Shown one piece after another: positions 1,658 through 23,966 of a stretch of DNA of 34,074 bases. The notes below the pieces were generated by a model, which saw only the letters and a list, made by a program, of their open reading frames with translations, made no database searches and had not been told where the DNA came from. Position 1 is the first letter of the stretch, and each line of letters starts with the position of its first letter. This stretch comes from Candidatus Woesearchaeota archaeon (GTDB taxonomy: Archaea > Nanobdellota > Nanobdellia > Woesearchaeales > SKGA01), in contig JAIPJP010000009.1 of the NCBI GenBank assembly GCA_021734105.1, forward strand, positions 1 to 34,074. The letters run 5' to 3'. The translations under genes and the position numbers were made by a program.

Positions 1658-2197
1658 CTACACTTCCAGTGCTCGCAAGAGTTTATTTATAAATGACTGT
1701 TCATAGCCACGAGCAAGGAGCATATTTGCTATCTGGTCATCTGTATAGCCTGCTTGTCTATATTGGTGCAAAGTAGGAAGAAGCTTCTCTACAGCCTCTT
1801 TATGTGTATGATGGAGGTGTCGGTATCTCCAGACGAGCAGAATACATAAACTTCCTAACAACAAAAAACCCGCTATAATAAAGAATTGTGTGAAAGTTGT
1901 TGAGTCGTCCAGCATCTCATCAGGAAAATCTGAAGAAAAATCTTGCCTTGAAGAATTGTTTCGAGTTGGAAACGATAATGAAGAATCATTATATGCTACA
2001 CTATCTTCTTGTAAGCCCGCAAGTGTCCCTCGATATGCTAAATCAACGTTAGTCTCGCAAAATGCGTAATAATCATCACCTAGTTCTGCTTTTGCTTGCT
2101 GTGGTGTGTCACAAATAGAAAAGTCAAATGCAAAAACAGTTGTTACTAAAAGTAAAAATATAATTCCCCATCCCACATATTTGTTTAAATGTTGCAT
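1658..2197 (-). CDS. Unrecognised single-pass membrane protein with cytosolic helical tail
   Basis: This 179-residue protein has an N-terminal hydrophobic signal (about 9-23, ending near VFAFD), then an extracytoplasmic Ser/Asn/Asp-rich region with two early cysteines. A second membrane segment lies at about 105-123 (FFIIAGFLLLGSLCILLVW). The basic, His-rich C-terminal region carries LHQYRQAGYTDDQIANMLL followed by GYEQSFINKLL, a short helical hairpin-like motif (G-Y/F...I...L...GY...I) that I cannot assign to a named family. The ATG overlaps the end of the 1276-residue peptidase-like gene by 13 bases, so this is the last gene of that operon and probably an accessory subunit. The inferred topology is N-terminus processed, middle outside, tail inside. 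Function unknown. Confidence 0.7.
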   Translation of the reverse strand: MQHLNKYVGWGIIFLLLVTTVFAFDFSICDTPQQAKAELGDDYYAFCETNVDLAYRGTLAGLQEDSVAYNDSSLSFPTRNNSSRQDFSSDFPDEMLDDSTTFTQFFIIAGFLLLGSLCILLVWRYRHLHHTHKEAVEKLLPTLHQYRQAGYTDDQIANMLLARGYEQSFINKLLRALEV

Positions 2198-5100
2198 GTT
2201 TTTGTCCTATAATCATCTGCATGCGTTCTACCATAATAACAACAAGATGACGTTGCTTGTGCATCCATTGCTTTTTCCCACATTTTTGTACCCATTTCAA
2301 AATGCCACCACTCCCAACCATATCGAACAAAACCAAAACCACACATAAATGTTTCTTGCTCAATATAAGATATTTGATTTTTTGATGCATCAAGTATGTT
2401 AATGTCTATTGCACCCCCAACCATGTGCGGACAAAGATACGGTTGTTCTTTTGTTTGGGGATCGCACGCCATGCTACGGTCAAATCCTGATTGTTCCCAA
2501 AGAGTATTTTGAATTTTCCAGGATCGATGAGCTTGTGAAATGACCATGGTCCAATCGTTAGCCTCTAATGCAGAAGATAATTGCTGTAAGGCAGTTACTA
2601 GTTGTTCATTCCCAGCGCAAATTTTTCCAACAGTTGTTGCTGATTCATCACAGATAATGTTTGGAATGCCTTGAATGTGATAAAGTGGTTCTGATGGTTG
2701 TAAGGGGTCGACAAGACCAGGGTATACAGCAAGATTGTTTGATGTTGGTGGCAAGAAATGATCCATACCAAGGAGAACGTTTTGATTGTATACACATACG
2801 TAGTCTTCTATATTTCTTGTTGAAAATTGTGTTCCTTGTTTGAGTAATTCGAATTGTTTTGAAGAAAGCGGTAGACCTGAATTATCTTTGGGACTGGTGA
2901 ACGTAAAAGTGCCTGTCGTTGATGCTTTTCCTCGGTTCCCATACTCATCAACAGGAATTATTCGGTAAAAATAAGGAGTGTTTTCTGCGAACGTATTGCC
3001 TGCTAAAGAGGGTTTGTTTATCCTGTACTTATAGGAAGTAATGCCATAACTTGCTGGTGTTTTGATGAGTTGTTCAAGCAGCAATGCTTGGTTGTTGATT
3101 GGAGTTTGTTCTAGTGCTGTTGCTGTTTGGACGGTTCTTGTTCCTAGGAGTTGAGTAAACGAAGGGTCTTGAGACACATCTATAATGAATGCATGTAAAG
3201 GTTCGTCGTGATTAATAAGATTCCAAGAAAGTGTTGCTGTATGAGTCAGTCCTACAATATCTTGTGATGAAGATAGCCAATTGAGATTTCCTGCAAAAAA
3301 ATCTTGTGCATCCACAAAATAAGGGTTTTGTAATGGCGTATTAAAACAAACACTTGTTGTTGTAGTTGTTACTATATTATCTTGTGGTGGTTGTGTATCA
3401 TCTAAATAAACGCTGAAGTTAAGTACGTCTCCTGTGCTTTGTATTGTTGCTTGAAATCCAAAGTAATGTTTGTTTGCTTTACAAGTGAGATGCGTATTAT
3501 TTTGTTGATAGGGTAACCATGAAAGTGCTGAGTAAGTATGTTTTAATAATCCGAAAGCAAGCACCGCTTCTCCTTTAACTGAATCTGCAGGTAATTCAGG
3601 AGTAATAAGATGCCAACCTTTTTTCTTTGATAAAATTTTATCCTCTCCTTTATCATTAACATAAAGACTTGCTGCTTTATTCCCATCTAACTCTAAGATA
3701 ATTGCTGATTTAGCTAAAGAAAGTTGTTCTGTTGGTATTGCAGGGTTAAAATCAAATTCATAAATAACATCATCCTCAGCAACAAATCTACCATCTGAGA
3801 AAAAAACCATTTTTTTTTCTGACTCACCACTTCCATTATAATAAGGAATGATAGGGCAAATACAGCCTTTTTGTTCGTTATAGCGACAATCTAATACTTG
3901 TTCAGCAATACTTGTTGCAAAAACATTATTTTTTGCTAGTAAAGTAATATGCACCGCATCATCATGCTCATTATTAAACTGCTCAACCACTTCTGTAACG
4001 CAGGTCTTGAGTTGATTATCACAAGCATAAACTTGTGGTAAAAAGTCTGTCGTAATTAAGTTCATTGCAGATAAATCAAGTCGTGTAGATGTACTAAATG
4101 CAGGATTAAGAGTAATTTCTGATGTTGATTGTAAAGACGTTAATGAAGAAAGGTCATTCCAGTTTGCATCAAAATAAGCTCTCCATGAACAATAAATTCC
4201 TTTTGCTCGTTCTGCATACTCGCAGGTTTTGTCTTGTAAGAAGTATCTTTTTCCACTTCCAATTACTTTATCATAACTTCCTTGATAAATGCAAAAAATA
4301 CAATTCCAAAAAACTTCAGGATCTTCTTGATAGGCAGAGCATTCTTCATAGAGTCCTACAACTGCGTGAGTGCCGGATAATGCTTCTTTATATGCAGCCA
4401 TATCTGTTGTTGCTGTGCAAGCAATTTGTGCTTCATCTGAAACAATCCATTGACTTTCACATTTGCATCCCGATGCGCAAGATTCTGGCCAACCGCATCC
4501 TGTAAGAGCGCTTTTTTGTTGAGAAGTACATTTATTGTTTTGTCCAAGACTTGATTCTAAAACAGCATGAGTAATAAGAAGCGCAGGATCAATACCTTCA
4601 GTAATGCCTTTTTCTATTGCTAAAGTATAATAATCTTGTTGTGGTGAGTTATAGGGTTGCTGTTGTAATTGTTGTAGATAATTATCCGAAGGCAAGTCAA
4701 TAGTTTCTGCGCTGCACCATTCAAAAGGTCCAACAAATGGAGGAATAGCACTCAAATCAGTAGGTAGTTTCGTATAGCCATTTGGTTGATAAATCGGTCG
4801 TAGAATTGTTTCTATTGCTGAGTGTTGTGAAGAAATAAATTTTTCTGGCAAATATTCCTTAACAAGTCCTTTTTGTGGCGTTGCGTGAATAATTATTGGT
4901 CGATTGGTTATATTATCTTTTGCCACATATAATGCAAGATAAATTCCTCCGGCGCTAATTGTTGAACCGTCTTCTAAGATTTTTTCTTGATCACGTATAA
5001 AAAATACATCGCCCACTTTTGCATCATTAAGAACTACTGTTTGCGTGCAGGCATCTCCTTTACAAATTGTTTGTTTACTTTGTGCTGCTTGAAAATATTG

Positions 5101-6015
5101 TGCTTGGCTAAGGCGCTCATTAAAAAAGGTTATGTTTGCGTGTTTCCCCACCCACCATAACCATCCGGCGCTATCAAAACCAGGCGATGTGCTTATTCGT
5201 TGGTTAAATCTATCTTCAGAAATTACTATATTTGAAAAAAAGGAATCATCACCTGCTGCAAGAGTTCTTACATCTTGTGGACAATAGGGAGATTCTCCAC
5301 TAATAATATAAGGATAGTTTTTATTTTGTAATTGATAAGTTTCATACAAGAGCGTTGCAACTTGTGAAAAACACTCCCCACTTGAACAAGTTATAGGTTT
5401 CTCAGCAGTATAAATTCCTAATGCCGTTTTAGGATATTGTTTTCGAACTAAAAATATGTTTTGACACGTATTCTCTGAAGTGGTAGAATCCTCAACACGT
5501 TTTGTTCCAGTAAATGGTAATGCTACTGATTCGCCTGCTGCTCGGATTACTAGTTCTTGTGGTGATTTTTGTTCAAAATTTAAATTGTATAAAAAGTATA
5601 ATGATCTTTCTGAGGGATAGTCTTGGAGATAATTAAAAAATAAATCATCAAAATAATTTGCAAAGGACGCAGTATAAGTTGGTAAACAATTAGATGTTTT
5701 AGAGTTATAATTTGGATATAAATGCGTGCCACAAGTTGAAGACATAATAGTTCCTGTTGGACTTAGTGGTTGATAAACTCCTCCTGATTGTATTACTGCA
5801 TATTTTGCAAAAGAAGCTGCATTTTCTGCAGCTAAATCAATATAAACATTTGCGCTTGTTGCTTGTTCTATTTTCATAAGAATATCATATTGGCTATTTC
5901 CTATATCGTTTTCTACAGAAGTAATTGAATTGTTTGTAATAAGAACTGCTGTTGCTATTAAAAAGAATAATGCGATAAGGGGTAATTGAACTCCTGCTTT
6001 TTTTCCTCGTATCAT
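2185..6015 (-). CDS. Surface protein with NlpC/P60-like (degenerate), lysozyme-like and M15 D,D-peptidase domains
   Basis: This is a 1276-residue membrane-anchored protein. The N-terminus MIRGKKAGVQLPLI leads into one membrane helix (about 12-28). Residues about 265-390 resemble NlpC/P60: FDSAGW sits where FDCSG is expected (Cys replaced by Ser282), GDVFF follows, GGIYL lacks the usual preceding His, and IIHATP follows. Residues about 460-585 look lysozyme/GH73-like (GIDPALLITHAVLESSLG, candidate acid Glu487). A fibronectin-III-like region spans about 920-1040. Residues 1135-1250 form an M15 (VanX/VanY) peptidase: the zinc motif PHMVGGAID supplies His1197 and Asp1204, and EWWHFE supplies Glu1235 and His1238. 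The spacing agrees with the family signature SxHxxGxAxD...ExxH. The start at 6015 forms an ATGA overlap with the gene upstream; a 15-codon longer frame is less likely. The M15 call is firm, the other domains are tentative. Probable substrate chemistry is D,D-dipeptide or peptidoglycan cleavage. Confidence 0.85.
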   Translation of the reverse strand: MIRGKKAGVQLPLIALFFLIATAVLITNNSITSVENDIGNSQYDILMKIEQATSANVYIDLAAENAASFAKYAVIQSGGVYQPLSPTGTIMSSTCGTHLYPNYNSKTSNCLPTYTASFANYFDDLFFNYLQDYPSERSLYFLYNLNFEQKSPQELVIRAAGESVALPFTGTKRVEDSTTSENTCQNIFLVRKQYPKTALGIYTAEKPITCSSGECFSQVATLLYETYQLQNKNYPYIISGESPYCPQDVRTLAAGDDSFFSNIVISEDRFNQRISTSPGFDSAGWLWWVGKHANITFFNERLSQAQYFQAAQSKQTICKGDACTQTVVLNDAKVGDVFFIRDQEKILEDGSTISAGGIYLALYVAKDNITNRPIIIHATPQKGLVKEYLPEKFISSQHSAIETILRPIYQPNGYTKLPTDLSAIPPFVGPFEWCSAETIDLPSDNYLQQLQQQPYNSPQQDYYTLAIEKGITEGIDPALLITHAVLESSLGQNNKCTSQQKSALTGCGWPESCASGCKCESQWIVSDEAQIACTATTDMAAYKEALSGTHAVVGLYEECSAYQEDPEVFWNCIFCIYQGSYDKVIGSGKRYFLQDKTCEYAERAKGIYCSWRAYFDANWNDLSSLTSLQSTSEITLNPAFSTSTRLDLSAMNLITTDFLPQVYACDNQLKTCVTEVVEQFNNEHDDAVHITLLAKNNVFATSIAEQVLDCRYNEQKGCICPIIPYYNGSGESEKKMVFFSDGRFVAEDDVIYEFDFNPAIPTEQLSLAKSAIILELDGNKAASLYVNDKGEDKILSKKKGWHLITPELPADSVKGEAVLAFGLLKHTYSALSWLPYQQNNTHLTCKANKHYFGFQATIQSTGDVLNFSVYLDDTQPPQDNIVTTTTTSVCFNTPLQNPYFVDAQDFFAGNLNWLSSSQDIVGLTHTATLSWNLINHDEPLHAFIIDVSQDPSFTQLLGTRTVQTATALEQTPINNQALLLEQLIKTPASYGITSYKYRINKPSLAGNTFAENTPYFYRIIPVDEYGNRGKASTTGTFTFTSPKDNSGLPLSSKQFELLKQGTQFSTRNIEDYVCVYNQNVLLGMDHFLPPTSNNLAVYPGLVDPLQPSEPLYHIQGIPNIICDESATTVGKICAGNEQLVTALQQLSSALEANDWTMVISQAHRSWKIQNTLWEQSGFDRSMACDPQTKEQPYLCPHMVGGAIDINILDASKNQISYIEQETFMCGFGFVRYGWEWWHFEMGTKMWEKAMDAQATSSCCYYGRTHADDYRTKTCNI

Positions 6016-6692
6016 GTTCCCACCACACCTTGTACTCCTGGTTTCACTGCTTGAGACCATACTTTTAGAACTGCATTTCGCATATTCGTTTTTGGTTGAT
6101 GAAGCTCGACAATAATAATAAATTCATTTGGTGCGAAGTTGCCTACTTGTTTTCCAGGAATAATTACTTGTGCTTGAAGTGGTTTCTCAATTGCTTTGTC
6201 TGATGGATGAGAAATCCTATAGACGTCTTGTTGAGTTGTAGTATCCACCAATCGAATAACATAATAAATATCTTTTGCATAATGTGGAGAATCAACTGCT
6301 AACTCTTCGCTAAGGACTTGATACTTGTTAAGCGTTGGTTCAAATGAATTTTGAATAAAATCGTTTTGAATAAGTATTCTCCTTTTTGTTAAATCTGAAT
6401 CTTTATGATGTACAAGCCAATTACTAAGCAGTATGTATTCTGCGATAAGTGATTGCGCATCTGTTGTCTTACCATCAAGAGTGATTGGTGTTTGCATATA
6501 CGTTTCTAATAGTCGTTGTTGTTCATAGAGTGTGTGGGCATCGTATGCCTCTTGAACTGTTGATTGTGCTACCAAAGTATTCACTTGATTAAATATAACA
6601 AAACCTATGATAATAAGTAAGAGCGCAAAAAATGCTGAAGCAACATCATCAGGCATCCAACCAACTCCTTTTTTGTTCATAGGCTTAATCAT
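6012..6692 (-). CDS. Unrecognised pseudopilin-like membrane protein, cysteine-free
   Basis: This 226-residue protein has the N-terminus MIKPMNKKGVGWMPDD followed by a hydrophobic helix (about 18-37). The basic NKKG placed just before the helix resembles archaeal class III prepilin signals. The remainder is a soluble ectodomain with a heptad-like region (about 38-70) and beta-rich second half, and it has no cysteine, unlike most neighbours. An AGGTGA ribosome binding site precedes the ATG at 6692. A second in-frame ATG four codons later also fits. It overlaps the previous gene by 8 bases and the next by ATGA, so translation is probably coupled within the operon that includes the M15 protein. 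Function unknown; a structural subunit is inferred. Confidence 0.75.
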   Translation of the reverse strand: MIKPMNKKGVGWMPDDVASAFFALLLIIIGFVIFNQVNTLVAQSTVQEAYDAHTLYEQQRLLETYMQTPITLDGKTTDAQSLIAEYILLSNWLVHHKDSDLTKRRILIQNDFIQNSFEPTLNKYQVLSEELAVDSPHYAKDIYYVIRLVDTTTQQDVYRISHPSDKAIEKPLQAQVIIPGKQVGNFAPNEFIIIVELHQPKTNMRNAVLKVWSQAVKPGVQGVVGT

Positions 6693-7512
6693 AGAATATC
6701 ACCTGAAGTTCTGCAGGATGTGTTTTTCCATAACTTGCTTTTGTTTGACAACTTCCTTTGTAATCAATAAGAAAGTCATTATAAGTGCAGGGGCCTTCTT
6801 TACTATAACAAAAATCGCTAAGATAAGGTGAAGGATTATATGATGTTGATGAAACACTTAATTTTAAAGAACAAGGACCAAAATTTGAACCGCTATATGT
6901 ACATTGCTCAATAGAGTTTTTTATTGCTAAAAAATCTTCGGGTTTAAGTAAAAGATGATTCTGAAAAAGATTGTCCCCTTGGTTTTCTGCTAAAGAAATA
7001 GCATTCTTTCTCATCTCACAGAGGTCTTCTTCATAAACTTCTTTTGCAAGTACGTATCTTGGTTGTAACGCGCGAGGTTTTTTCCCTGTTAGTGCATCAA
7101 CAGGAGTTCTTGTTTGGGAAAAGTCATCGAATAAAACTGCTCGACGAGAAGAAAAGGTAGGCATCGTTGTGGATAAAGGCTTAATAGTAACCGTTGCAGC
7201 GGGGGTACTTTCGCCTATAAAACAAGAGTGTAAATGTTCATTTGAAACTAATGATAAATCTATGATGTTGGGGTGTTGTTCTGTTTGTGTTGGCGTTGTT
7301 TGCTCAGTTAATGCAAAGCAAGTGTTTGTTATGCGAGCAATAAAAAGATCTTCTTTGAGTATTTCAGGTGTTGCGGTAAGTGAATTAAAAAATGATGCTC
7401 CAAAGCCCCAAATAGAAAAAACTAGCATGATAGCAAGAGCCAACCCTACAAGCCAATAAAATACTTTGCTTGTTGTAATTTCTTGTCCTTTTTTGTTAGT
7501 AAATAATCGCAT
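6685..7512 (-). CDS. Unrecognised pseudopilin-like membrane protein, cysteine-containing
   Basis: This 275-residue protein begins MRLFTNKKGQEITTSK, with the Gly-Gln of a typical class III cleavage site, followed by a membrane helix (about 19-42). The ectodomain contains eight cysteines (for example NTCF, HSCF, DLCE, EQCT, GPCS, DFCY, GPCT, GSCQ), suggesting disulfides outside the cell. It is the first gene of the operon 7512 to 1658. A TATA box lies at 7544-7551, and its start region shares 16 identical bases with the start of the other operon (12688-12703). It overlaps the next gene by 8 bases. No recognisable domain. The position and N-terminus suggest a subunit of the same surface assembly. 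Confidence 0.75.
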   Translation of the reverse strand: MRLFTNKKGQEITTSKVFYWLVGLALAIMLVFSIWGFGASFFNSLTATPEILKEDLFIARITNTCFALTEQTTPTQTEQHPNIIDLSLVSNEHLHSCFIGESTPAATVTIKPLSTTMPTFSSRRAVLFDDFSQTRTPVDALTGKKPRALQPRYVLAKEVYEEDLCEMRKNAISLAENQGDNLFQNHLLLKPEDFLAIKNSIEQCTYSGSNFGPCSLKLSVSSTSYNPSPYLSDFCYSKEGPCTYNDFLIDYKGSCQTKASYGKTHPAELQVIFYD

Positions 7513-7518
7513 AGCTAT
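7503..7518 (-). repeat. 16-base operon-start repeat, copy 1
   Basis: The minus strand reads ATAGCTATGCGATTAT here and again at 12688-12703. Each copy spans the start codon of the first gene of an operon, encoding MRL and the following aromatic position. Exact identity through the untranslated part as well as the codons suggests duplication or a conserved initiation context. Confidence 0.7.
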
Positions 7519-7543
7519 CTCAAGAAAATTATCGCAGTAAGTA

Positions 7544-7551
7544 CTTATATA
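7544..7551 (-). promoter_or_regulatory. TATA box for the 7512-1658 operon
   Basis: TATATAAG on the minus strand, 32-39 bases before the ATG at 7512, predicts a start near 7521 and a very short leader. It lies immediately downstream of the T8 tract that ends the preceding operon, as expected for a new transcription unit. Confidence 0.55.
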
Positions 7552-7581
7552 CCTTACCTTATAGAAAAACCACTCATAAGT

Positions 7582-7589
7582 AAAAAAAA
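7582..7589 (-). terminator. Oligo-T terminator after the 12697-7609 operon
   Basis: Eight consecutive T on the minus strand begin 20 bases after the stop of the 303-residue gene, with no hairpin. Archaeal RNA polymerase commonly terminates on such tracts. A new TATA box follows at once. Confidence 0.55.
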
Positions 7590-7608
7590 CCTTTGCTAAG
7601 GGTTAAGT

Positions 7609-8520
7609 TTATTGTAAGGATAATTGTGCTTGAGGATAGGTCTTCTTAACAGCATCGGCGAGTGCTATTCCTATCGTTCGTTGCAAACTAGAATCGCGAC
7701 GAAGTTCTCCAAATTGATCATGTTGTAATCCAAATGAAATATCTATGTGTGCTTGTGTTGTTTGAGGAAATGTTTTAGAGCCTCCTAAAGAAGAGTCAAT
7801 TAAACCTTGCAATGCACTCTGCACGTTTGTGGCAAGTAAAGTGACTGCATCAGAATTAAAGTTTGAATAATAAATACTGTGTGAATCATCATCTGAAAAA
7901 CTTAGTTGGATAAGAATTGTTGCTAAGTGAGATGATACTAGTTGAATTTGTTTGTCGCGAAGTTGATCAGTTAATGCTTGGTGTATAGTATTAAGAACCT
8001 GTGCATCACCACTATTTCCTGAATCAACAACTATTCCTATGCGAACATCTTTAAGTCCCGTGCTTAAAACTAAACTATCGTCAAATAAAAATGAGCCGTC
8101 ATGCACAGCATAAGCGTTCCCTTGTTTAGTAAGTAATATGTGGGCTGCATCAATAAGTAATTTATCTGGCAGAACCGCTTCTTGTGTGGTATAAAAAAAA
8201 TAATTTTGAAAGGTGTCGAGTCGCTCGGCTTTGTTTTCAGATATTTCTTCTTTTGCAACGACTCGCACAATATTATGTTCCATGTCGACATTTCGTTCTT
8301 GTAAGGAAACAGGATATCGATAGTTCACATCGTAAGGCGATGTGTGAATAGCGTCCATAGAAAGCGCGATGTTTTTTGCAAGAATGGTTGATTCTGCTGT
8401 TTGCGGATATAAATAAGCATTGACCACGGTAAACAAGGTGATACCAACAAGCGCGGCTATAAGAATGCCTCCGATGGTAGTAAGACTCCATTCTATTGAA
8501 CCTTTTTTGTTAAAAAACAT
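7609..8520 (-). CDS. Pseudopilin-like membrane protein with possible degenerate amidase_3 fold
   Basis: This 303-residue protein begins MFFNKKGSIEWSLTT and then has a membrane helix (about 14-36). Residues about 158-295 follow the strand/helix order of N-acetylmuramoyl-L-alanine amidase type 3: VRIGIVVDSGNSGD in place of the DPGHGG strand, ATILIQLSFSDD in place of the SIHAN strand, SIYYSNFNSDAVTLLATNVQ in the position of the YYS..S..LA..IQ helix, then HIDISFGLQHD and a final LADAVKKTYP helix. The zinc-binding histidines of active enzymes are absent from the first two motifs, so it would be catalytically dead if the assignment is right. The match is by eye and tentative. Its ATG shares one base with the stop of the previous gene (TAATG). 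It is the last gene of the seven-gene operon. Confidence 0.7.
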   Translation of the reverse strand: MFFNKKGSIEWSLTTIGGILIAALVGITLFTVVNAYLYPQTAESTILAKNIALSMDAIHTSPYDVNYRYPVSLQERNVDMEHNIVRVVAKEEISENKAERLDTFQNYFFYTTQEAVLPDKLLIDAAHILLTKQGNAYAVHDGSFLFDDSLVLSTGLKDVRIGIVVDSGNSGDAQVLNTIHQALTDQLRDKQIQLVSSHLATILIQLSFSDDDSHSIYYSNFNSDAVTLLATNVQSALQGLIDSSLGGSKTFPQTTQAHIDISFGLQHDQFGELRRDSSLQRTIGIALADAVKKTYPQAQLSLQ

Positions 8521-9992
8521 TATTCTGTTTCCTCAGAAGTTCTCATGACTTGTTCACTAAGACCGGTAAAGAGTAAAATATTATCTGTGTCTAGATTATC
8601 GTCTGATTTTAATTCTATAGTAAAATCTAGCGTATTAAGCAAAGAATATGTTAGTTTATACTCTTGATTTATATTGCTACAGAGTTGTTGTGGTGTTTGC
8701 GATAGCAGTTGGAATACAGGCAGTTCATCCTCTTGATTTGTTGTGACATTAACTACATAAAAATGAGTTGTATTAAGCACGTTCGATTGTTTAAATCGCA
8801 AAGGGAGATAGACTTTGAATGATTCTCCATGCATAATTTCAATAGGTTCTTGATTATTACACGTATTTGTAAACAATATTTGTGGCGTTATTGTCCAAAT
8901 GTCGTTTTTTTCTTGAGTAAATTCAAGTAAAGGAATTAATGCTTTATCTTGTAAACTAACTGGATTATTAATGAATGCTGACGAGGTAAGTGGAAATGGT
9001 GATATCCTTTTAATGGATAAATTGCAGGATTTTGCTTCTTGATCTGAAACCGAAGTAGAGATGCAATCATCAGATAACGTTGAAAAAACGCTATGTTGTT
9101 GTTGTTCCACTAAACCTGTTAAGGAAAACGCTATAGAAAATAAATTCTTATCTAAATCTAATGATAAAGAAGGTTGATTAGTAAAACAAACCTCGTGTAG
9201 ACACACACCATAAATTCCTTCTGTAGAACTTTTTTCCATACGAAGAATAGTTTGTACAGGCTTCATTTCTTTATCTTTTTTTGTAATAGTTGCAACACCA
9301 CCTATAACAACGCCGCCTTTCCATTCATAGTTTGTTGTTAAGTCTTCAACATAACTTTTGGCTTGTTTTGCAACACTATATGAACGACTAACCTTACCTT
9401 GTAAAGTTGTTTGACCAAGAAGTAAAATATCTAAAGGTATAGGATAATAATAAATATCATTTGTATCAAACTCTTTTGTTTTTTCCAAAATAGAGGTGTA
9501 GAATTCATTGTTTCCTCGGGAATTTCCAAAAAAAGCTTCTTCATTTGCAAATGTTTGGCAGGTGAGATATGGTGTGGGACAAGCATATGGCTCGTTAAGT
9601 AAAAGAGTGAAGGATAATTTGTCTTTGACTTGATTCCAATAAGGACCCGCACCGCAATGACAAACGCAGGCTTGATTTATGCAGGCTTCATCTGTTGGTC
9701 GCTGAAAAATAAATGTGTTGTCCGAGTTTTTTGACTGTAAACGTATGGGTGCTACACCTGCTGAAAAAAACAAGAATAAATCTTTTTCATGAATAGAAAA
9801 TCCTTGATATAAACCTTCACCCGGGTCTACATTTTCTAGATAATGGGATTGTTCTATAATTTGAGCAACGAGTTGTGAACCTGAAGAATCGCTATTGCTT
9901 AAAAATATATAATCAAAATGTGCGCAGCCTTTAAAGAAAAGCATAAGTATAATCCCTGTTAAAATAAGACTAACTAAAGTTACAAGACTCAT
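8520..9992 (-). CDS. Unrecognised membrane-anchored ectodomain protein
   Basis: This 490-residue protein starts MSLVTLVSLILTGIILMLFF, a single membrane segment with little basic sequence in front, followed by KGC and a large mostly beta-rich ectodomain. A CVCHCG cluster occurs near residue 110, with other cysteines scattered. The frame is open for a further 74 codons, but that extension overlaps the upstream gene and is Lys-rich. A GGAG ribosome binding site at 10001-10004 sits 8 bases before this ATG, and the start comes 17 bases after the upstream stop, so I place it here. The stop shares a base with the next start (TAATG). No family recognised. It is probably an extracellular subunit or adhesin-like component of the operon. 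Confidence 0.75.
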   Translation of the reverse strand: MSLVTLVSLILTGIILMLFFKGCAHFDYIFLSNSDSSGSQLVAQIIEQSHYLENVDPGEGLYQGFSIHEKDLFLFFSAGVAPIRLQSKNSDNTFIFQRPTDEACINQACVCHCGAGPYWNQVKDKLSFTLLLNEPYACPTPYLTCQTFANEEAFFGNSRGNNEFYTSILEKTKEFDTNDIYYYPIPLDILLLGQTTLQGKVSRSYSVAKQAKSYVEDLTTNYEWKGGVVIGGVATITKKDKEMKPVQTILRMEKSSTEGIYGVCLHEVCFTNQPSLSLDLDKNLFSIAFSLTGLVEQQQHSVFSTLSDDCISTSVSDQEAKSCNLSIKRISPFPLTSSAFINNPVSLQDKALIPLLEFTQEKNDIWTITPQILFTNTCNNQEPIEIMHGESFKVYLPLRFKQSNVLNTTHFYVVNVTTNQEDELPVFQLLSQTPQQLCSNINQEYKLTYSLLNTLDFTIELKSDDNLDTDNILLFTGLSEQVMRTSEETE

Positions 9993-10000
9993 CCGTGTTT

Positions 10001-10004
10001 CTCC
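10001..10004 (-). promoter_or_regulatory. Ribosome binding site fixing the start at 9992
   Basis: GGAG, 8 bases upstream of the ATG, lies just after the stop of the preceding gene and inside the discarded 74-codon N-terminal extension. Confidence 0.6.
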
Positions 10005-10011
10005 ACGGGAC

Positions 10012-10710
10012 TTATGATTGTCTTTCTTGTTTATCTGCATTTTTAGCTTCTTCTTTTTCTGCTGCACAAGCATTTTCTCGAAGTTGTTTGCACGAGTCAG
10101 CATCATTGGGTATGAGACATGCTGTTTCATACGTGTATTTGCTTTCTTTAACAAAGAAATCTTCTTTAAAATCTTCAATAGTGCAATCAATTGTTTTTGA
10201 AAAACAAATATCATTTAAGTCCGGGCTTTGAGTTTTCGGTTCAAGTCCTGCTTGTTTAAAAACTAATTTAGGCTTATTGTCTTGTATACAGTCATCTCCT
10301 TGTGCGTTGCATGCTTCTAATTCATAAACATATTTTGCTAGTCGCTGTACGTCTTCAAAGCTAATACGCGAAGGTAGTGAGCCATCAATTAATTTAAACA
10401 ACTCTTGTGCTTTGTGTTTTTCTGTATTAGTAACAAAAGGCACATCTATAAGATAGAATTGGTTTGCAGGAGTATCCTCATTACATATACAAGTCCCGAG
10501 TTGTTGTTCTATACCATCTCGTTGACCATCACCATCTGTATCTACGTTTAAACAAAAATGGCTTTCAATACTTGAAAATCCTTGGCCAACCATATTTGGG
10601 ATAGCTACTGCTAAAAGCACCATAACAATAACAGCCGCGCCAATTTTGGGCCATAAAGAGGTTGCTCCCCCATCGCCTTTTTTATTTTTCATCATGGTAT
10701 TAATCATCAT
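10012..10710 (-). CDS. Pseudopilin-like membrane protein with EF-hand-type calcium loop
   Basis: This 232-residue protein has the N-terminus MMINTMMKNKKGDGG followed, after a short spacer, by a helix at about 22-40. Residues 57-68 read DTDGDGQRDGIE, a textbook 12-residue EF-hand/thrombospondin-3 style loop with Asp at positions 1, 3, 5 and 9 and Glu at 12. CIC and further cysteines follow, and the C-terminus is Lys/Glu/Ala-rich. Extracellular calcium binding is the likely property; no enzyme domain is seen. AGGTGATAT directly precedes the ATG, and the start at 10707 is an equally good alternative. The start region resembles that of the gene at 6692. The gene lies 21 bases after the stop of the 315-residue gene. 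Confidence 0.75.
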   Translation of the reverse strand: MMINTMMKNKKGDGGATSLWPKIGAAVIVMVLLAVAIPNMVGQGFSSIESHFCLNVDTDGDGQRDGIEQQLGTCICNEDTPANQFYLIDVPFVTNTEKHKAQELFKLIDGSLPSRISFEDVQRLAKYVYELEACNAQGDDCIQDNKPKLVFKQAGLEPKTQSPDLNDICFSKTIDCTIEDFKEDFFVKESKYTYETACLIPNDADSCKQLRENACAAEKEEAKNADKQERQS

Positions 10711-10731
10711 ATATCACCTGTACGCTCCTCT

Positions 10732-11679
10732 TTAAATTTTTTCAACTAGTCCCTGAGTTAGTAGTTCTGATACTACATCATCAGAAATTAACCTATTACC
10801 GCCTTTTAATTGTAATGTATCGCTTATGTTTTCTAAAGATAAACCGCCACTAGACCCTCCCGACTTTTGCGCTCGCACCATAACACAAACATAATTATCA
10901 TACACCCACACTAAAAGTCCTTCAGTATAAATTGAATCATCAGGAACTGCGAGTTTACGAGTAATATCTTTTTGTTGAGGCTTTGCAGAATTACTATACT
11001 GGCTAGTAAAATGAAGAGATTCATCATCTTTTTTATCTTCATCTAACAATTGGCGAAAAGAAACATAAGATACCTCGTAGTTTTTTGCTACAGTTGAAAT
11101 AGTAATGTCATCGTTCGGATAATCGGGATACTCTGCTGCAATGTCTGAAATATCATGTAGTAGTGGTGCGTGAACTGCTGCTGGAAGATAACAGAGTTTT
11201 CTAAATTTAAGATATGATGTTGTATCGTAGTCAGTAAGCAGTGATTTTGTTAGGATATCGCCATTTTTGTTTGTCAGATAAGAAACAACTCCTCGAGGAG
11301 CTGATTGAAATTGTAAACCTATTTCTGTTCCTTGTGAAGTAAAAAATTCATTAGCATCGCTAATAGACGTTAGTAAAACAAGCTGGCCGTTGGGATACTT
11401 GGTAGTATTAGAATATTTTTTAGTCGCAGCAAAAAAATCAAATTGTATATCTAATGTTCCTTGCACTTGTTGTGTCGAAAGCATATTTTTTATTGAGGAG
11501 GCTAGCGCTTCTTCCCCTTCAGCGTCGCTTTCAAAAAATTTATCTGGATTAAATTCTTCATCTACTTGGTGTCGTGCTTCAGAAAAGAGTTTTCCAAATG
11601 CTGTTGCAACGATGAGTACTACCAGTAATAAAATAAATAATTGTTTAATGGTTGATAATTGTGCTGTTGTTGATTTCAT
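10732..11679 (-). CDS. Unrecognised single-pass membrane protein
   Basis: This 315-residue protein has a membrane helix at about 12-28 (LFILLLVVLIVATAFG) preceded by a short polar N-terminus, and a soluble, mixed alpha/beta ectodomain with only two cysteines (KLCYLP and NYVCVM). A Ser/Gly-rich linker (about 270-278) precedes a C-terminal helical segment. Its ATG overlaps the stop of the 53-residue ORF as ATGA, implying coupled translation and supporting that tiny ORF. No recognisable family. By context it is another subunit of the seven-gene operon. Confidence 0.7.
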   Translation of the reverse strand: MKSTTAQLSTIKQLFILLLVVLIVATAFGKLFSEARHQVDEEFNPDKFFESDAEGEEALASSIKNMLSTQQVQGTLDIQFDFFAATKKYSNTTKYPNGQLVLLTSISDANEFFTSQGTEIGLQFQSAPRGVVSYLTNKNGDILTKSLLTDYDTTSYLKFRKLCYLPAAVHAPLLHDISDIAAEYPDYPNDDITISTVAKNYEVSYVSFRQLLDEDKKDDESLHFTSQYSNSAKPQQKDITRKLAVPDDSIYTEGLLVWVYDNYVCVMVRAQKSGGSSGGLSLENISDTLQLKGGNRLISDDVVSELLTQGLVEKI

Positions 11680-11837
11680 CGAAAACCCAACCCTCTAAAA
11701 CCAATTTTTGTTACTCCTGATGATGCTTCAAAAAGATGTTCTTTGAGTATGAAAAAGAATCCTATAATGAATCCTGCAATAATTACCCACAAGATAATTT
11801 TTTGTAGTTCTTGGGAAAATCCTTTTTTAGTCCACAA
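11676..11837 (-). CDS. Small pseudopilin-like membrane protein, TTG start
   Basis: This 53-residue frame starts at a TTG (11837) and begins M/L-W-T-K-K-G-F-S-Q-E, followed by a strongly hydrophobic helix (about 14-31), then a short polar tail ending GFR. The KKG before the helix matches the N-termini of its neighbours. It overlaps the end of the 249-residue gene by 11 bases and the start of the 315-residue gene as ATGA, filling exactly the gap that would otherwise be about 150 bases of non-coding DNA in a packed operon. A GGTG lies 8 bases before the TTG. No ATG is available. A one-helix linker or minor pilin is plausible. Confidence 0.65.
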   Translation of the reverse strand: MWTKKGFSQELQKIILWVIIAGFIIGFFFILKEHLFEASSGVTKIGFRGLGFR

Positions 11838-12576
11838 ATTCCCTACACCCCATCTTTTGTCCTATAGCATATTGATAGGTGCTAAACATAACTATATTTG
11901 TATCTGCAGATAATTTTGATTTACCAAAAAAGGGCGCATCAGGACTACCTACTGAGATTGCGTAAACTTCTCCTGGTTTAATGATTCCATTAGCGTCTTC
12001 ATCTGGAAATAAGTAAGCTCCTTCTCCTCCTTTTGATTGAACATATTCTGCAAAGGTGTAGCGTAATTCTCCTTGTTTACCGTCTGTTCGAGGAAATGAT
12101 GCATAATATTCTTGTGCAAAATAATTGTCCATTTGTTGGTAAGTTATTCCTGGATAGCTCATACCAAAAAGCGGAGTTGGATTAAACCTGAGTTTGTAAA
12201 TAATCATACATTCGCTTCCTGATTTAAACAAATCAACTAAATCAGTATCCCACATTTCTTCTTTTATTGTTCCTTCGTGTGTTATTTTCCATGCGCGTGC
12301 CATGTTCATCGCTATTTCGTGTTGAATGCCTTCTGGCGAACTTACATCTTTATCAATAAGTGGTTTATTAATAGTTTCGCAGGCTTTTAAAACCATATCT
12401 CCCGTGACCGATTGCACACCTAGTTTTTGCAGGTTAAGTACAGCCCAACATTCCATTCCTTCAGAAGAGTCTTCAACATCTTTGGTGCATGATTGAAATA
12501 AAAGCATTGCTACAATTAAAAAAAGAGATACCATAATAACGGATAAAATAGTTGAATTCACTCCTTTGCTATCCAA
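11827..12576 (-). CDS. Pseudopilin-like membrane protein with EF-hand-type loop, TTG start
   Basis: This 249-residue protein starts at TTG (12576) and begins DSKGVNSTILSV, with a membrane helix at about 9-28 followed by a QSC. Residues 192-203 read DEDANGIIKPGE, matching the EF-hand consensus DxDxNGxIxxxE, so extracellular calcium binding is likely, as in the gene at 10012. Five cysteines lie in the ectodomain. The start overlaps the stop of the 42-residue ORF by 8 bases. The only in-frame alternatives are far downstream in the helix, so TTG is the best choice. No family recognised. It is the second gene of the seven-gene operon. Confidence 0.7.
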   Translation of the reverse strand: MDSKGVNSTILSVIMVSLFLIVAMLLFQSCTKDVEDSSEGMECWAVLNLQKLGVQSVTGDMVLKACETINKPLIDKDVSSPEGIQHEIAMNMARAWKITHEGTIKEEMWDTDLVDLFKSGSECMIIYKLRFNPTPLFGMSYPGITYQQMDNYFAQEYYASFPRTDGKQGELRYTFAEYVQSKGGEGAYLFPDEDANGIIKPGEVYAISVGSPDAPFFGKSKLSADTNIVMFSTYQYAIGQKMGCREFVD

Positions 12577-12697
12577 GTTCTTTCACCGCCGTCATGAATA
12601 TATAAATAACAAATCCAACAAGAAGCGAGACTAAAATAACTATGGCTATTGTTCTCATTCCGTCAGCGTTACCTTGTTTAGACGAGTATAATCGCAT
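12569..12697 (-). CDS. Small single-pass membrane protein, first gene of operon
   Basis: This 42-residue protein begins MRLYSSKQGNADGMRT and continues with a hydrophobic helix (about 17-35), ending VKELG. A GAGG ribosome binding site at 12705-12708 is 7 bases before the ATG, and a TATA box lies at 12732-12740. The 16 bases around the start are identical to those at the start of the 275-residue gene at 7512. The stop overlaps the TTG start of the next gene by 8 bases. All of this supports a real gene despite its size. It looks like a minimal pseudopilin or a linker; function unknown. Confidence 0.7.
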   Translation of the reverse strand: MRLYSSKQGNADGMRTIAIVILVSLLVGFVIYIFMTAVKELG

Positions 12698-12703
12698 AGC
12701 TAT
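12688..12703 (-). repeat. 16-base operon-start repeat, copy 2
   Basis: The minus strand reads ATAGCTATGCGATTAT, identical to 7503-7518, again spanning the start codon of the first gene in an operon. Confidence 0.7.
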
Positions 12704-12731
12704 TCCTCAGAGTAGTATTTGAAGAGTAATT

Positions 12732-12740
12732 CTTTTTAAA
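12732..12740 (-). promoter_or_regulatory. TATA box for the 12697-7609 operon
   Basis: TTTAAAAAG on the minus strand predicts transcription starting near 12710, giving a leader of about 12 bases that just contains the GAGG ribosome binding site of the 42-residue ORF. Confidence 0.55.
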
Positions 12741-12765
12741 TGTGGCGGTTAGAAAAAGTATCGCG

Positions 12766-13941
12766 CTAAGAAGTTACTAGCACGCATTCATTCTTTTTAA
12801 AGAAATTTGTTTTCCATTTACAAGAAAGCTCGGCAGGACAAAGTTGTTCCTCGCAAGCAATTTTATCTGGATAATCCCCGCAAGCAACAACATCATCACA
12901 ATCAAAACAAGTTTTCTTTCCCCACTCACAGTCACCAACAGCACAAGAATCTATAATGCAAGATTCATTTACTCCATAATCGCGACACTCGTTAATAGTA
13001 CAATCAACACAGGTTTCGCTCGTAGTCCAATAACAACCATTACATTCGCTTACCAACGCATTATCTGCATTACAAGTTGTCGTGTTTTTATAAAAGGAAC
13101 ATGGTGTGCACGCTCCCAGCGGATTTGAAATCGTATCAGAAGATATAGCTTCTGTGTCTGCCGCGTTTGGATTTTCTGATTTGAGGAGATAAAATTGTTG
13201 AATATTTTTTTCTGAACTTTTTACTGCATAAGTTAAGAGATAATAAGGTTCATCTCCGGCTAACCCTGCTAGTTTTCCAGTAATTTGTACTCCTGTTCCT
13301 TTCTTACAATTTGTTTTTTCATAGTCAAATCCTGGTTCGGGAGGCAGGAGTGTACCTTGGGCAGTGCTTAGAGGATGATAAGTAGTATTCGATGTAGTTC
13401 GTGATGCTTTTCGAATGGTTAATGAGCAAGTGCCATCTGCAAATTCATTAATACCTACAATATCAATTATTTCTTGCGGTGTGATTTCAGCAGATGAGTA
13501 GTTAGTAGGATAAGACGTTGTTTTAGAGGTTACTCCAAGACTGTTTAAGTCATTATCTTTATGAAGATATAATCCTATGTTACCATCAGGACAGTTAAAA
13601 TTTGTAATATCTTCTAGGAGAACAATTTTTCTATCAGTACCGCTTGTTGTTGCTGCAATTGAGTCTGACCATCGTTGAAATTCCTCTTTTTTACCTGGCT
13701 GCGCTATGCAACAAACTCGCCCCGTTTCATCAGGTTCAATAAAATTATTGCGTATGGAAACATCTTCATCGCAAGATCCTGTTCGTATACCATTTTGTTG
13801 ATTACAAGGATCTGTTTGTAAAGGATTTATAATAAGTGGTATGATAATAAAAATTACAACAAGAAGAACAATAATACCAATAATTATTTTGAAGGGTAAT
13901 TCTGTGCCCATGTCTGCTTTGTTGGAAAATAAAAGTTTCAT
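12766..13941 (-). CDS. Membrane-anchored protein with three C-terminal cysteine repeats
   Basis: This 391-residue protein begins MKLLFSNKADMGTELPFK with a long helix (about 18-40). A mixed ectodomain follows. The C-terminal third (about 277-377) contains three roughly 30-residue modules, each with several cysteines and an aromatic (C-x-W or C-Y-W) near the end: one ending CNGCYW, one with CRDYGVNESC then CAVGDCEW, one with CGDYPDKIAC then LSCKWK. Related modules occur in the 1339-residue protein encoded at 19941-23960. Disulfide-stabilised extracellular repeats are inferred. A GTGAGG lies just before the ATG. It is separated from the upstream gene by T-tracts and from the next by about 70 bases, so it may be transcribed alone. 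Function unknown. Confidence 0.75.
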   Translation of the reverse strand: MKLLFSNKADMGTELPFKIIIGIIVLLVVIFIIIPLIINPLQTDPCNQQNGIRTGSCDEDVSIRNNFIEPDETGRVCCIAQPGKKEEFQRWSDSIAATTSGTDRKIVLLEDITNFNCPDGNIGLYLHKDNDLNSLGVTSKTTSYPTNYSSAEITPQEIIDIVGINEFADGTCSLTIRKASRTTSNTTYHPLSTAQGTLLPPEPGFDYEKTNCKKGTGVQITGKLAGLAGDEPYYLLTYAVKSSEKNIQQFYLLKSENPNAADTEAISSDTISNPLGACTPCSFYKNTTTCNADNALVSECNGCYWTTSETCVDCTINECRDYGVNESCIIDSCAVGDCEWGKKTCFDCDDVVACGDYPDKIACEEQLCPAELSCKWKTNFFKKNECVLVTS

Positions 13942-13951
13942 ATTGCCTCAC

Positions 13952-13974
13952 AAAAAAGAGTAAAAAAGAAAAAA
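13952..13974 (-). terminator. Oligo-T terminator between the 84- and 391-residue genes
   Basis: Three T6 tracts lie in close succession on the minus strand beginning 11 bases after the stop at 13985. This fits an archaeal intrinsic terminator, although read-through into the next gene is possible because its promoter is not obvious. Confidence 0.4.
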
Positions 13975-13984
13975 TAAGCACAGT

Positions 13985-14242
13985 TTAACTTTGTGTTTTA
14001 AGGGAAATATAACATTTGCCACCTAAATCTTTACATTCTCCATCTCCTGCTGGATAACGCAACGTGTGCGTGGTGTCTGGATTACACATGCCGTTCATTG
14101 CAAAACATCCTGTTGATTTTTCAATATTGTTTCCTGATTTAAACACAAACATTGCCAAAATGACCAGTACTAAAACTGCAATTGCAGCAATAATAATAAC
14201 ATTCATAGAGAGTTCTGAGCCTTTTTTATTCTTAAATACCAT
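13985..14242 (-). CDS. Small pseudopilin-like membrane protein with four-cysteine ectodomain
   Basis: This 85-residue protein begins MVFKNKKGSELSMN and continues with a helix of about 20 residues, very like an archaeal class III prepilin. A compact ectodomain follows with four cysteines (GCFAM, GMCNP, GECKD, GKCYI), perhaps two disulfides. The frame is open for ten more codons upstream, but GAGGT at 14251-14255 sits 8 bases before this ATG, so I take 14242 as the start. A TATA box lies at 14290-14298. Monocistronic by context. A minor pilin or small surface subunit is inferred. Confidence 0.7.
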   Translation of the reverse strand: MVFKNKKGSELSMNVIIIAAIAVLVLVILAMFVFKSGNNIEKSTGCFAMNGMCNPDTTHTLRYPAGDGECKDLGGKCYISLKTQS

Positions 14243-14289
14243 ACGTATCAACCTCACGAGTCTTTTCAACAAGTTTTCTATAAAAATCT

Positions 14290-14298
14290 TTATTTAAA
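14290..14298 (-). promoter_or_regulatory. TATA box for the small pilin-like gene at 14242
   Basis: TTTAAATAA on the minus strand predicts transcription near 14269 and a leader of about 27 bases holding the GAGGT ribosome binding site. Confidence 0.5.
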
Positions 14299-14303
14299 TG
14301 TTT

Positions 14304-14447
14304 CTATGAGTCTGAGAAGACGTGAAGTTGCGCGTAAGGCAAAATAAAGAGCTTGAAGCAATAAACTGCTAGCGCCACTAACACCCAAAAAAACAATAGC
14401 TGGGCTGTTACTATGTCCAAACCTCTACTAGACCATCTTTTGTTAAT
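14304..14447 (-). CDS. Possible tiny membrane ORF with non-ATG start
   Basis: An open frame ending at TAG (14304-14306) encodes a basic INKRWSSRG segment, then a hydrophobic helix (LLFFWVLVALAVYCFKLFIL) and a short tail. The layout imitates the 53-residue ORF at 11676: a basic R/K-G motif, then one helix, directly after a pilin-like gene. There is no ATG. Candidates are an ATT at 14447, overlapping the previous stop and 7 bases after AGGA, or a TTG at 14420 that would discard the basic segment. Without a convincing start it could be a chance open frame, but the helix and position argue for a gene. Confidence 0.4.
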   Translation of the reverse strand: MNKRWSSRGLDIVTAQLLFFWVLVALAVYCFKLFILPYAQLHVFSDS

Positions 14448-14937
14448 TACAAATTCCTAATTCTAATCGTACAGCTCCAGTCCATGGATAAAGAGGTATA
14501 GAATAAGGGCTTATGGGGCTTCTTCCGACCGTTTCTGCTGTGCAAAGGCCTTGCCCTGCAGTAATATCCTTTGCAGATGTTGAGGGGAAGTCAATTCGAA
14601 AATCATAGATATACCCCCATTCGTCAAGTGTTTGGTTCGTAATATTATATAGGGTGTCATTAATCGCAGCACAAGAGTTCATACCATGACATCGTATGGT
14701 TCTTGTTGTTGCGCAATCGTAAATGAGACTATCTATTGTTGTTCCGCACAAAGAGGTGTCGATAAATGCTTTAATAAAACTTGCTTGGAGTGCGTTGTTG
14801 GTGTATTGTGTGAATAATCGTTTTTTTGATGAATCAGCAGCGTTTATACTTGAGGAAAGGTAAAAAAGTAAGACTATGGAGATGATAATAACTATAATAA
14901 CTAGACCTATTATTTCTGATTGTGCTTTTTGTTTCAT
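14443..14937 (-). CDS. Type IV pilin-like protein (K-A-Q-S-E class III signal)
   Basis: This 164-residue protein begins MKQKAQSEIIGLVIIVIIIS, a near-ideal archaeal prepilin N-terminus: basic residues, Ala-Gln cleavage site, Glu at mature position 3, then a hydrophobic helix to about 28. The ectodomain has six cysteines and an N-glycosylation-type NDT/NIT/NQT run. Processing by a prepilin peptidase (not encoded here) would be expected. The ATG overlaps the upstream stop as ATGA. It is the last confident gene of the operon starting at 23960. The pilin-like class is well supported; its role in a filament is inferred. Confidence 0.8.
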   Translation of the reverse strand: MKQKAQSEIIGLVIIVIIISIVLLFYLSSSINAADSSKKRLFTQYTNNALQASFIKAFIDTSLCGTTIDSLIYDCATTRTIRCHGMNSCAAINDTLYNITNQTLDEWGYIYDFRIDFPSTSAKDITAGQGLCTAETVGRSPISPYSIPLYPWTGAVRLELGICN

Positions 14938-15485
14938 CGTCTATCATACGCTGTTATAAATAACACGCCAAACGCTGTGTCTTTGGTAATGCCATGTTGT
15001 AAGGAGAGAGGAGTGATTACTTGGCGAACATTTGCAATGGATTCGTTTAATGAGTTATTATATAATACCCACTTTCGTTTTCCTGGATATATTTCTTGCA
15101 CATAAATAGTAATGGTTCCTAATTGTGTTGCATAATATTCTTCTGTTAATATTGCTTCGCTCTTAAGCATTGTTTCAAAGGCATCAAGTTTTGTTGTGTC
15201 AAAGCAAGAGTTTTCAGTTATTTCTAGCTCTGCGCATGCAAGTTCGGGTAAAGTTCCTATAAATTGCGCGAGCGCTATGGAATCTAAGTCATCAAATTTT
15301 GATCGTTGCTCATTAAAGTCTTCTTCTTGTACGTTTGAGTAAAACACCAGTCCAAAAATAATAATAAAAAGTATAATGATAATGGCAAAAATTGATTCTC
15401 CCATTTGTATTTGTGCGCGTTCGGTTTGTTTTGGTGCGCAGCGTTGATGCGAGGAATTATTTTTTATTGTGTTCTTTGATTTCAT
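14934..15485 (-). CDS. Minor pilin-like membrane protein
   Basis: This 183-residue protein has a 28-residue polar, basic N-terminus containing ERAQIQMGES, then a helix (about 33-50, IFAIIIILFIIIFGLVF). The R-A-Q site followed by a Glu resembles a class III signal with an unusually long leader. The ectodomain includes LACAELEIT, CFD and a YPGKRKWVLYNN strand region. It starts 4 bases after the previous stop and overlaps the next gene as ATGA. No ribosome binding site is obvious, consistent with coupled translation. It belongs to the same four-gene pseudopilin block as its neighbours. Function inferred only. Confidence 0.75.
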   Translation of the reverse strand: MKSKNTIKNNSSHQRCAPKQTERAQIQMGESIFAIIIILFIIIFGLVFYSNVQEEDFNEQRSKFDDLDSIALAQFIGTLPELACAELEITENSCFDTTKLDAFETMLKSEAILTEEYYATQLGTITIYVQEIYPGKRKWVLYNNSLNESIANVRQVITPLSLQHGITKDTAFGVLFITAYDRR

Positions 15486-15489
15486 CGTG

Positions 15490-16647
15490 TTAGTAAAGCG
15501 AAAGGCAGTTTTGTGATGCTGTGACTTGGTTATTTATGGTAGCAAGTTTGTTTAGAGAGTTCGTCGTACGTGCTATGGTGGTAAAATTAAATGATTCTTG
15601 TAATGTTTTGTTAAGTTCTTGAAGATAATGTGTTGCTCCCGTATCAACAGTGTTATCAAGAAGATAGGTGCAGCTTGCAGAAACAAAGGCGGGCGTTAAA
15701 GAAGTAATTTCTTTAATGCGATAGTAATGGAGCATGCTTGCCATGCGTAGTCGTTGTAATGCTTTTTGCATAGTGCATGCATAGGTTTGTTTTGATTCTG
15801 AGAACATTGCACCATAAATACTTGCTTTATCTAAATAAGGCGAAGGATAGGCATTATCTGAGTCTGTAAGAAAATTCACTAACTTTTTCGTCGAGTTAAC
15901 AGTCTGTTGTTTAATTATGCTTAAAGGAATAAAATAAATTGTTCCGTTAAAAAAAGGATCTGCGTTGTTTGCAGGTTCTATGACAAGAACATTTCCTCGA
16001 GCATCCAAATCTGCATTCTTAAAATTTAATTCAATCTCGGAGTTGGTATTAAGTTGTTGTTTAAGAAATACGTACGTGTATCTATCCATGTTTAGCTTGA
16101 TATCCTCTTCGCTTTTATTCCATGCGTAGCGACTAAAGTTTTCTGGAAAGTCTTTATATAAATCATTCATGTGCGAGTATTGGTCTGGTTGATAAAACAC
16201 AAAATGTTCTTTGTCATTGGTTACATACAAAAAGTTTCCAACGCTGTATGTTGGCGACCAACTCTTTGTCCATGTATAAATTACATCACCTTGTAAATTA
16301 TAAGGTGAAAAATAAATATTATATTTGGTATTCACCATTTTTATATCTTCTATTGCATAATAATAAAGATTCTCTTGAGTATTGCATACGAATGAAAGTT
16401 CAAATGGCGGTATTCGCTCATAGATTTTTATGGTACCTGGTTGTTGCTCTGTAGCTGAGAGAATGGTTTTCATGCGTTGTGCAAAATTAATACTTATGGT
16501 TTGTTCGCTTGTTTTACTTTGCCCTCCAATGATGGTAAAGAAAAAAAGGAGAATGACGGCGCCAACTATTAAAACGAATATCCAATTAAATTGGAGTTCC
16601 ATTTGAGCTTTTGATGAACGAGTGAGTGGTGGTTTGGTTGATTGCAT
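15490..16647 (-). CDS. Pseudopilin-like membrane protein, large ectodomain
   Basis: This 385-residue protein begins with 12 polar residues, then SKAQMELQFNWIFVLIVGAV, i.e. a K-A-Q-x-E site at the start of a helix (about 20-40). The ectodomain is rich in aromatic residues and predicted mixed alpha/beta, with four cysteines mostly in the second half. It starts 4 bases downstream of the previous stop without a clear ribosome binding site. I recognise no domain. The set of a short K-A-Q-I-N protein, this one, a G-E-S protein and a Q-S-E pilin in fixed order looks like a co-evolved structural block. Confidence 0.75.
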   Translation of the reverse strand: MQSTKPPLTRSSKAQMELQFNWIFVLIVGAVILLFFFTIIGGQSKTSEQTISINFAQRMKTILSATEQQPGTIKIYERIPPFELSFVCNTQENLYYYAIEDIKMVNTKYNIYFSPYNLQGDVIYTWTKSWSPTYSVGNFLYVTNDKEHFVFYQPDQYSHMNDLYKDFPENFSRYAWNKSEEDIKLNMDRYTYVFLKQQLNTNSEIELNFKNADLDARGNVLVIEPANNADPFFNGTIYFIPLSIIKQQTVNSTKKLVNFLTDSDNAYPSPYLDKASIYGAMFSESKQTYACTMQKALQRLRMASMLHYYRIKEITSLTPAFVSASCTYLLDNTVDTGATHYLQELNKTLQESFNFTTIARTTNSLNKLATINNQVTASQNCLSLY

Positions 16648-16651
16648 AGTA

Positions 16652-19925: not shown

Positions 19926-19940
19926 GCAGTACCTCTTTTT

Positions 19941-23960: not shown

Positions 23961-23966
23961 CACAAA

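Follow-up and report, generated by a model that had tools for sequence, protein, structure and literature searches.

In bacteria, membrane-anchored conjugation lysins of the CwlT/VirB1 type combine an SLT domain with an NlpC/P60 domain, i.e. a glycan cutter with a peptide cutter, and open the wall of the cell that produces them. The protein considered here, encoded in a 34,074-nt window (the whole stretch of DNA that was analysed) of a Woesearchaeales contig, likewise unites a predicted glycan cutter and an NlpC/P60 domain in one membrane-anchored chain, but its cell is apparently wall-less, its peptide module precedes the glycan module and its NlpC/P60 domain looks dead. Modules that are swapped on a common frame would follow a logic similar to that of polymorphic toxins, here perhaps with apparently wall-less archaea set against bacterial cell walls.

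Archaeal peptidoglycan hydrolases as such are already known. Some kill bacteria, and they have been described as modular, with shuffled domains, and as prominent in Nanoarchaeota (PLoS Biol 2025, PMC12352652). To be included there, a protein needed at least one cell-wall-binding domain, and the signals scored were Sec/Tat; the window family, by contrast, begins with a pilin-type sequence, and none of the known wall-binding families is prominent in our tallies, so the survey may have missed it. Closest in host and size are the large transglycosylase-domain proteins of Woesearchaeota and Pacearchaeota (fam00969; Castelle et al., 2021, PMC8204110) and the GH23 proteins of 'vampiristic' Woesearchaeota (Vigneron et al., 2022, PMC9723730), which are likewise very large and extracellular, come from the same archaea, carry a wall-cutting glycosidase and have a suggested bacterial target. 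These reports deal with one enzyme class, in passages that mention neither a pilin-type anchor or fixed operon position nor exchange with M23, amidase, NlpC, M15 or YkuD, and it is by this published description that the window family would be set apart from fam00969. One of the isolates among our loci, bin.69 (L079), is likely, judging from its name, to be the 'Bin 69' reported by Vigneron et al. (2022). Accounts of the scaffold, of the fixed slot or of cassette exchange were sought in the open-licence literature and none was found; within this known kind of enzyme, an exchangeable pilin-signal scaffold in a fixed slot appears to be new.

A long gene with a pilin-like start

The genome (1.07 Mb, about 97% complete) carries a long ORF on the minus strand, at 2185-6060 of the window. 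The gene that had been predicted at 2185-6015 is real, and the ATG at 6015, giving a protein of 1276 aa, is its likely start, since this codon (6015-6013) shares bases with the upstream gene's stop (6014-6012), the two reading ATGA, and since the class III motif 'MIRGKKAG' comes after it. Residue numbers count from the ORF start at 6060 (1291 aa), which makes the ATG at 6015 residue 16. The features of the gene and its surroundings are as follows.

429-1601, minus: RPA-like OB-fold gene, 3' marker of the slot across the order
1658-2197, minus: small membrane protein, encoded between the enzyme and OB genes, seen in close relatives
2185-6015, minus: whole gene, 1276 aa (ORF call; ATGA overlap with the upstream stop)
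5917-6015, minus: class III/pilin-like signal (MIRGKKAG) and transmembrane helix (sequence, hydrophobicity, helix in the model)
5572-6003, minus: conserved domain of the anchor (residues 20-163), without a Pfam family (HMM over relatives, alignment, AF2 mean pLDDT 83)
4834-5364, minus: NlpC/P60-like domain, residues 233-409, apparently catalytically degenerate, with Ser297 for Cys (codon 5170-5172)
4285-4647, minus: probable lysozyme-superfamily domain, residues 472-592, with Glu502 (codon 4555-4557)
3856-4116, minus: 'mod645', the second conserved module of the scaffold (residues 649-735), in which no Pfam family recurs
3331-3534, minus: module of residues 843-910, found in close relatives only
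2275-2667, minus: M15 (VanX/VanY-type) peptidase, residues 1132-1262, with H1212, D1219, E1250 and H1253
6012-17167, minus: upstream run of small proteins, mostly with K[GA]-type pilin-like N-termini, partly conserved in relatives
17148-33861, minus: large surface proteins of the same locus (925, 1344, 1083 and 1800 aa)

The AF2 model of the anchor domain shows two helices, one of them transmembrane and the other long, and a small alpha/beta part. A solved relative was sought with Foldseek and with a PDB profile, but none came to light (no PDB match at E ≤ 0.001), and the predicted fold matched none of the solved pilin heads. At its N-terminus, a K[GA] motif lies just before the hydrophobic helix, as in class III/type IV pilin-like proteins, and the genome encodes a prepilin peptidase (Peptidase_A24, on contig C12, away from the locus) as well as GspE-type (pilus-type) ATPases elsewhere. 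The neighbourhood of pilin-like subunits that had been proposed is borne out, K[GA]-type N-termini being present in 14 of the 19 window genes scanned (this gene included, and one of them marginal). The accompanying idea that the enzyme sits at a surface tip fared less well: the flanks examined in relatives held no pilus ATPase or platform gene beside the operon (by blastp, which divergent ones could escape), and the anchor is unlike the solved pilins. These observations also bear on a narrower form of our preferred explanation (see below), namely that the protein opens the wall of a recipient for a pilus, DNA-transfer or secretion apparatus. The pilin-like neighbours, the pilus-type ATPases of the genome and the pairing of a peptide with a glycan cutter, which recalls CwlT, would fit such a role, but the lack of ATPase or platform genes in those flanks and the unfamiliar anchor fold make it rather unlikely in our eyes.

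When the first 140 aa were made into a profile and the search was iterated, about 95 strong-scoring proteins were retrieved, mostly one per locus, and the domain recurs in 106 of the 234 genomes of the class. In the other orders of the class almost all anchor proteins are shorter than 400 aa, so that it seems to be mainly this order that has the form with enzymes.

Two peptidoglycan-type domains and a probable third on one anchored chain

Used as a single query, the full-length protein found neither a PDB sequence match nor relatives among the genome contigs; relatives were gathered by genome search and alignment of the OB gene. The original prediction placed three peptidoglycan-type folds on one membrane-anchored protein, which the domain matches support. 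For the C-terminal one, the zinc motifs with VanX/VanY spacing that had been read from it hold up. PF02557 (VanY) matches at E 4.7e-6 (26.9 bits against a curated cut-off of 25), the only VanY match in the genome, and the alignment shows the M15 motifs that hold the zinc ligands and the catalytic Glu, HxxGxAxD (H1212 and D1219, in 'HMVGGAID') and ExWH (E1250 and H1253, in 'EWWHFE'). Solved M15 structures are retrieved by a profile built from eight relatives, VanX (1r44) with the best E-value (1.7e-8). Both motifs are shared with the VanX/VanY peptidases (PDB 1r44, 4ox3), but unlike these the window M15 is fused into an anchored protein of 1276 aa, as its C-terminal portion.

The middle domain probably belongs to the lysozyme superfamily (GH23/GH73-like), an assignment based on weak scores and unanimous structural neighbours. 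In isolation it has a Pfam Glucosaminidase match below the cut-off (E 0.0052), and a PDB sequence-profile search with its alignment returned nothing meaningful. An AF2 model built from a three-row alignment (pLDDT 66, pTM 0.72) has lysozyme-superfamily entries as all of its first 37 Foldseek neighbours, at E 0.34 or worse, if one counts two Tse3 entries and one autolysin, which we take to be members. The nearest in the PDB are E. coli MltE, goose-type lysozymes, MltC and MltF. Glu502, on a conserved helix, is invariant among the three closest domains. The lysozyme-like helix proposed earlier keeps its glutamate, and the fold around it is probable.

For the N-terminal third, homology to NlpC/P60 is established through relatives. 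The window region alone has a sub-threshold Pfam match (E 0.1), but it aligns at 31-34% identity with same-position homologues of the genus or family (G001, G002 and G003) that exceed the NlpC/P60 cut-off (E 4.3e-8, 9.8e-13 and 1.1e-10, the second value being for the whole protein over two stretches), and the profile finds LytE (4.2e-7) and Spr/MepS. The wall-degrading activity ascribed to this region is not supported: the catalytic Cys is Ser297 in the window (Gly in G001, Ala in G002), and alignment with the homologues shows no active-site His, so that the domain looks like a catalytically dead, degenerate relative. The Cys is kept in G003 and in two further loci, L109 and L141, none of which shows an M15. 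Where the NlpC is dead, in the three genus members, a further peptide cutter follows later in the chain: in the window protein and in G001 this is M15, whereas G002 has an additional NlpC/CHAP-like domain. In these small numbers there is a hint that M15 or a second NlpC has replaced the dead one. At residues 814-987 and 1133-1239, the slot protein of the genus mate G002 (L033, ORF 6673-11325, minus strand) has a GDSL esterase and this second NlpC/CHAP-like domain, the latter with an apparent catalytic Cys.

A fixed operon slot with varying cassettes

The enzyme gene sits just 5' of the RPA-like OB-fold gene, with the small membrane protein intervening in close relatives. Among 80 named OB-gene loci, 65 have an anchor-domain protein upstream on the same strand, and several of the other 15 are cut by contig ends; 43 of the 58 non-duplicate anchor proteins at OB loci terminate no more than 300 bases away from the OB match. 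The named relatives in public records are mostly Woesearchaeota, Nanoarchaeota or Nanoarchaeia. At some loci, L049 among them, anchor and enzyme are split into neighbouring genes. Bacterial-type domains in a fragmented, probably metagenome-derived genome might point to bacterial contamination of the assembly, but genes of this kind accompany the one archaeal RPA-like gene in many independent records of Woesearchaeota type, and the anchor recurs across the class as given above; this conserved gene context refutes contamination, to which we assign practically no weight.

What occupies the slot varies. With profiles seeded from this family, a peptidoglycan-hydrolase cassette (SLT, M23, NlpC/P60, amidase, M15 or YkuD) was found in 43 of 89 non-redundant anchor proteins. 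It lies between the anchor and mod645 in 30 of the 30 cassette proteins that have both modules, and where two enzymes are present the peptide or amide cutter comes first and the glycan cutter second (15/15), counts that are not independent trials and for which binomial figures overstate independence, because the proteins and genomes concerned are related. When both modules occur with no detected cassette (n = 31), the gap between them has a median of 33 residues, with one outlier of 264. The position is also apparent from Pfam alone, in tallies that count families and not distinct proteins: 66 slot ORFs next to the OB gene, from Woesearchaeota-type records, gave SLT 16, M23 7, NlpC/P60 4, 3D 4, Amidase_2 3, Lysozyme_like 2 and GH25 1, against SLT 2, M23 1, NlpC/P60 1 and Amidase_2 1 in 118 ORFs from elsewhere in these loci, a few of these control matches belonging to split slots.

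Whole genomes tell the same story. When the slot was defined as the 6.5 kb upstream of the OB gene in 98 genomes of relatives, it held 15 of 102 SLT, 15 of 56 M23 and 5 of 9 VanY matches, where uniform placement would have put 0.28, 0.15 and 0.02 there; in total, 35 of 167 matches fall in the slot (about 0.45 expected), and 31 of 91 genomes have at least one. The slot is thus strongly enriched without being the sole home of these families, and with 132 matches elsewhere these archaea possess other enzymes of the kind.

A quickly built tree of 65 OB proteins requires at least 19 changes of cassette label, and at least nine of cassette presence or absence. Fully supported sister rows can differ, as L122 (NlpC and SLT) and L136 (M23 and SLT) do, which is consistent with cassettes being swapped between lineages. 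A fully supported clade of 23 rows has the anchor protein with no recognised cassette (one has an amidase in the neighbouring ORF), so cutting walls would not be the only role of the anchor. The window protein is, as far as these comparisons of sequence go, one member of an order-wide modular family with exchangeable cassettes.

Such variety matters for the view that the domains mainly bind the bacterial wall, or similar glycopeptides, and anchor the archaeon to a host, with catalysis secondary or lost. Several losses agree with it, since the window NlpC/P60 has neither Cys nor His, two genus mates also have no Cys, and the M15 of one relative (L041) has lost the first zinc His ('PYRVSGAVAI'); the same locus holds large surface proteins, and attachment is what Castelle et al. 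(2021; PMC8204110) suggest for the large transglycosylase-domain proteins of Woesearchaeota and Pacearchaeota. Yet the window M15 retains its H/D/E/H set and the lysozyme-like domain its Glu502, an 'ES' helix motif is seen in most SLT cassettes (helix extraction missed the correct helix in several rows), and plain adhesion would not predict varied enzyme classes at one position, for which reasons we consider adhesion as the main function unlikely.

Three minor observations concern the slot and its borders. The small membrane protein (1658-2197, minus) has a C-terminal helical motif (DDQIANMLLARGYEQSFINKLL) matched in close relatives only. The RPA-like OB-fold gene, which almost every genome of the order possesses, keeps its place beside a surface-protein operon. 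Beside the slot of L045, a gene at 8262-12221 (plus) combines polysaccharide deacetylase, M15 and NAGPA, and the gene that precedes it is an anchor with SLT.

Target of the enzymes

The original prediction had left two targets side by side, a bacterial partner or prey and the cell's own unusual envelope. Neither a Mur ligase (Mur_ligase_M) nor a penicillin-binding transpeptidase was found in the about 97% complete genome, and on this ground the cell appears to make no peptidoglycan and a wall of its own is an unlikely target. Maintenance of the archaeon's own envelope would agree with the predicted surface location and with the habit of bacterial enzymes of these folds, which usually remodel the wall of their owner, but the missing synthesis genes, and a frequency of cassette change among relatives that does not fit a housekeeping substrate, leave it very improbable. 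The same missing genes, together with other peptidoglycan hydrolases at the same position in relatives, argue for the bacterial target.

We therefore think it probable that the protein is a surface-displayed peptidoglycan hydrolase, built on an exchangeable-cassette scaffold and aimed at bacteria. The class III (prepilin-type) signal and the transmembrane helix would keep the anchor domain in the membrane, as sequence and model suggest, and the cassette inserted between anchor and second module, here the dead NlpC/P60 and the lysozyme-like domain, is joined by M15 at the far C-terminus. In such an arrangement, (i) the lysozyme-like domain would cut glycan strands, (ii) M15 would cut stem peptides, possibly substituting for the dead NlpC, and (iii) the latter may bind wall peptides. 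Because the cell appears to be without peptidoglycan and would need no self-protection, the enzymes could be kept on its surface, where they might serve to breach the walls of bacteria, be these partners or prey, to feed on such walls, or to attach. A wider proposal, which we put forward tentatively, is that of an order-wide anti-bacterial system in which one pilin-signal scaffold, in a fixed slot and with swapped hydrolases, is displayed on a dedicated surface appendage.

The family speaks to the question of whether, and how, Woesearchaeota and the DPANN archaea related to them make a living from bacteria. A single scaffold with swapped enzymes offers (i) a defined set of proteins for expression and testing, (ii) a marker of archaea likely to attack or feed on bacteria, (iii) through the type of cassette, a possible clue to the walls that these archaea meet and (iv) natural peptidoglycan hydrolases whose domains are arranged in new ways.

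The remainder of the locus offers some observations of its own. The ORF at 8520-10214 (minus) overlaps the gene at 10012-10710 by 203 bases, and translation of it probably begins at an ATG inside the frame, near residue 75. Further upstream, a Memo-like gene (27520-28416, minus; PF01875, 9e-28) lies between large surface-protein genes, with a homologue at the corresponding place in L162, and two relatives have very long single frames upstream (L147, 3-18233, plus, 6077 aa; L149, 2222-19147, plus, 5642 aa) that match the large surface proteins of the window.
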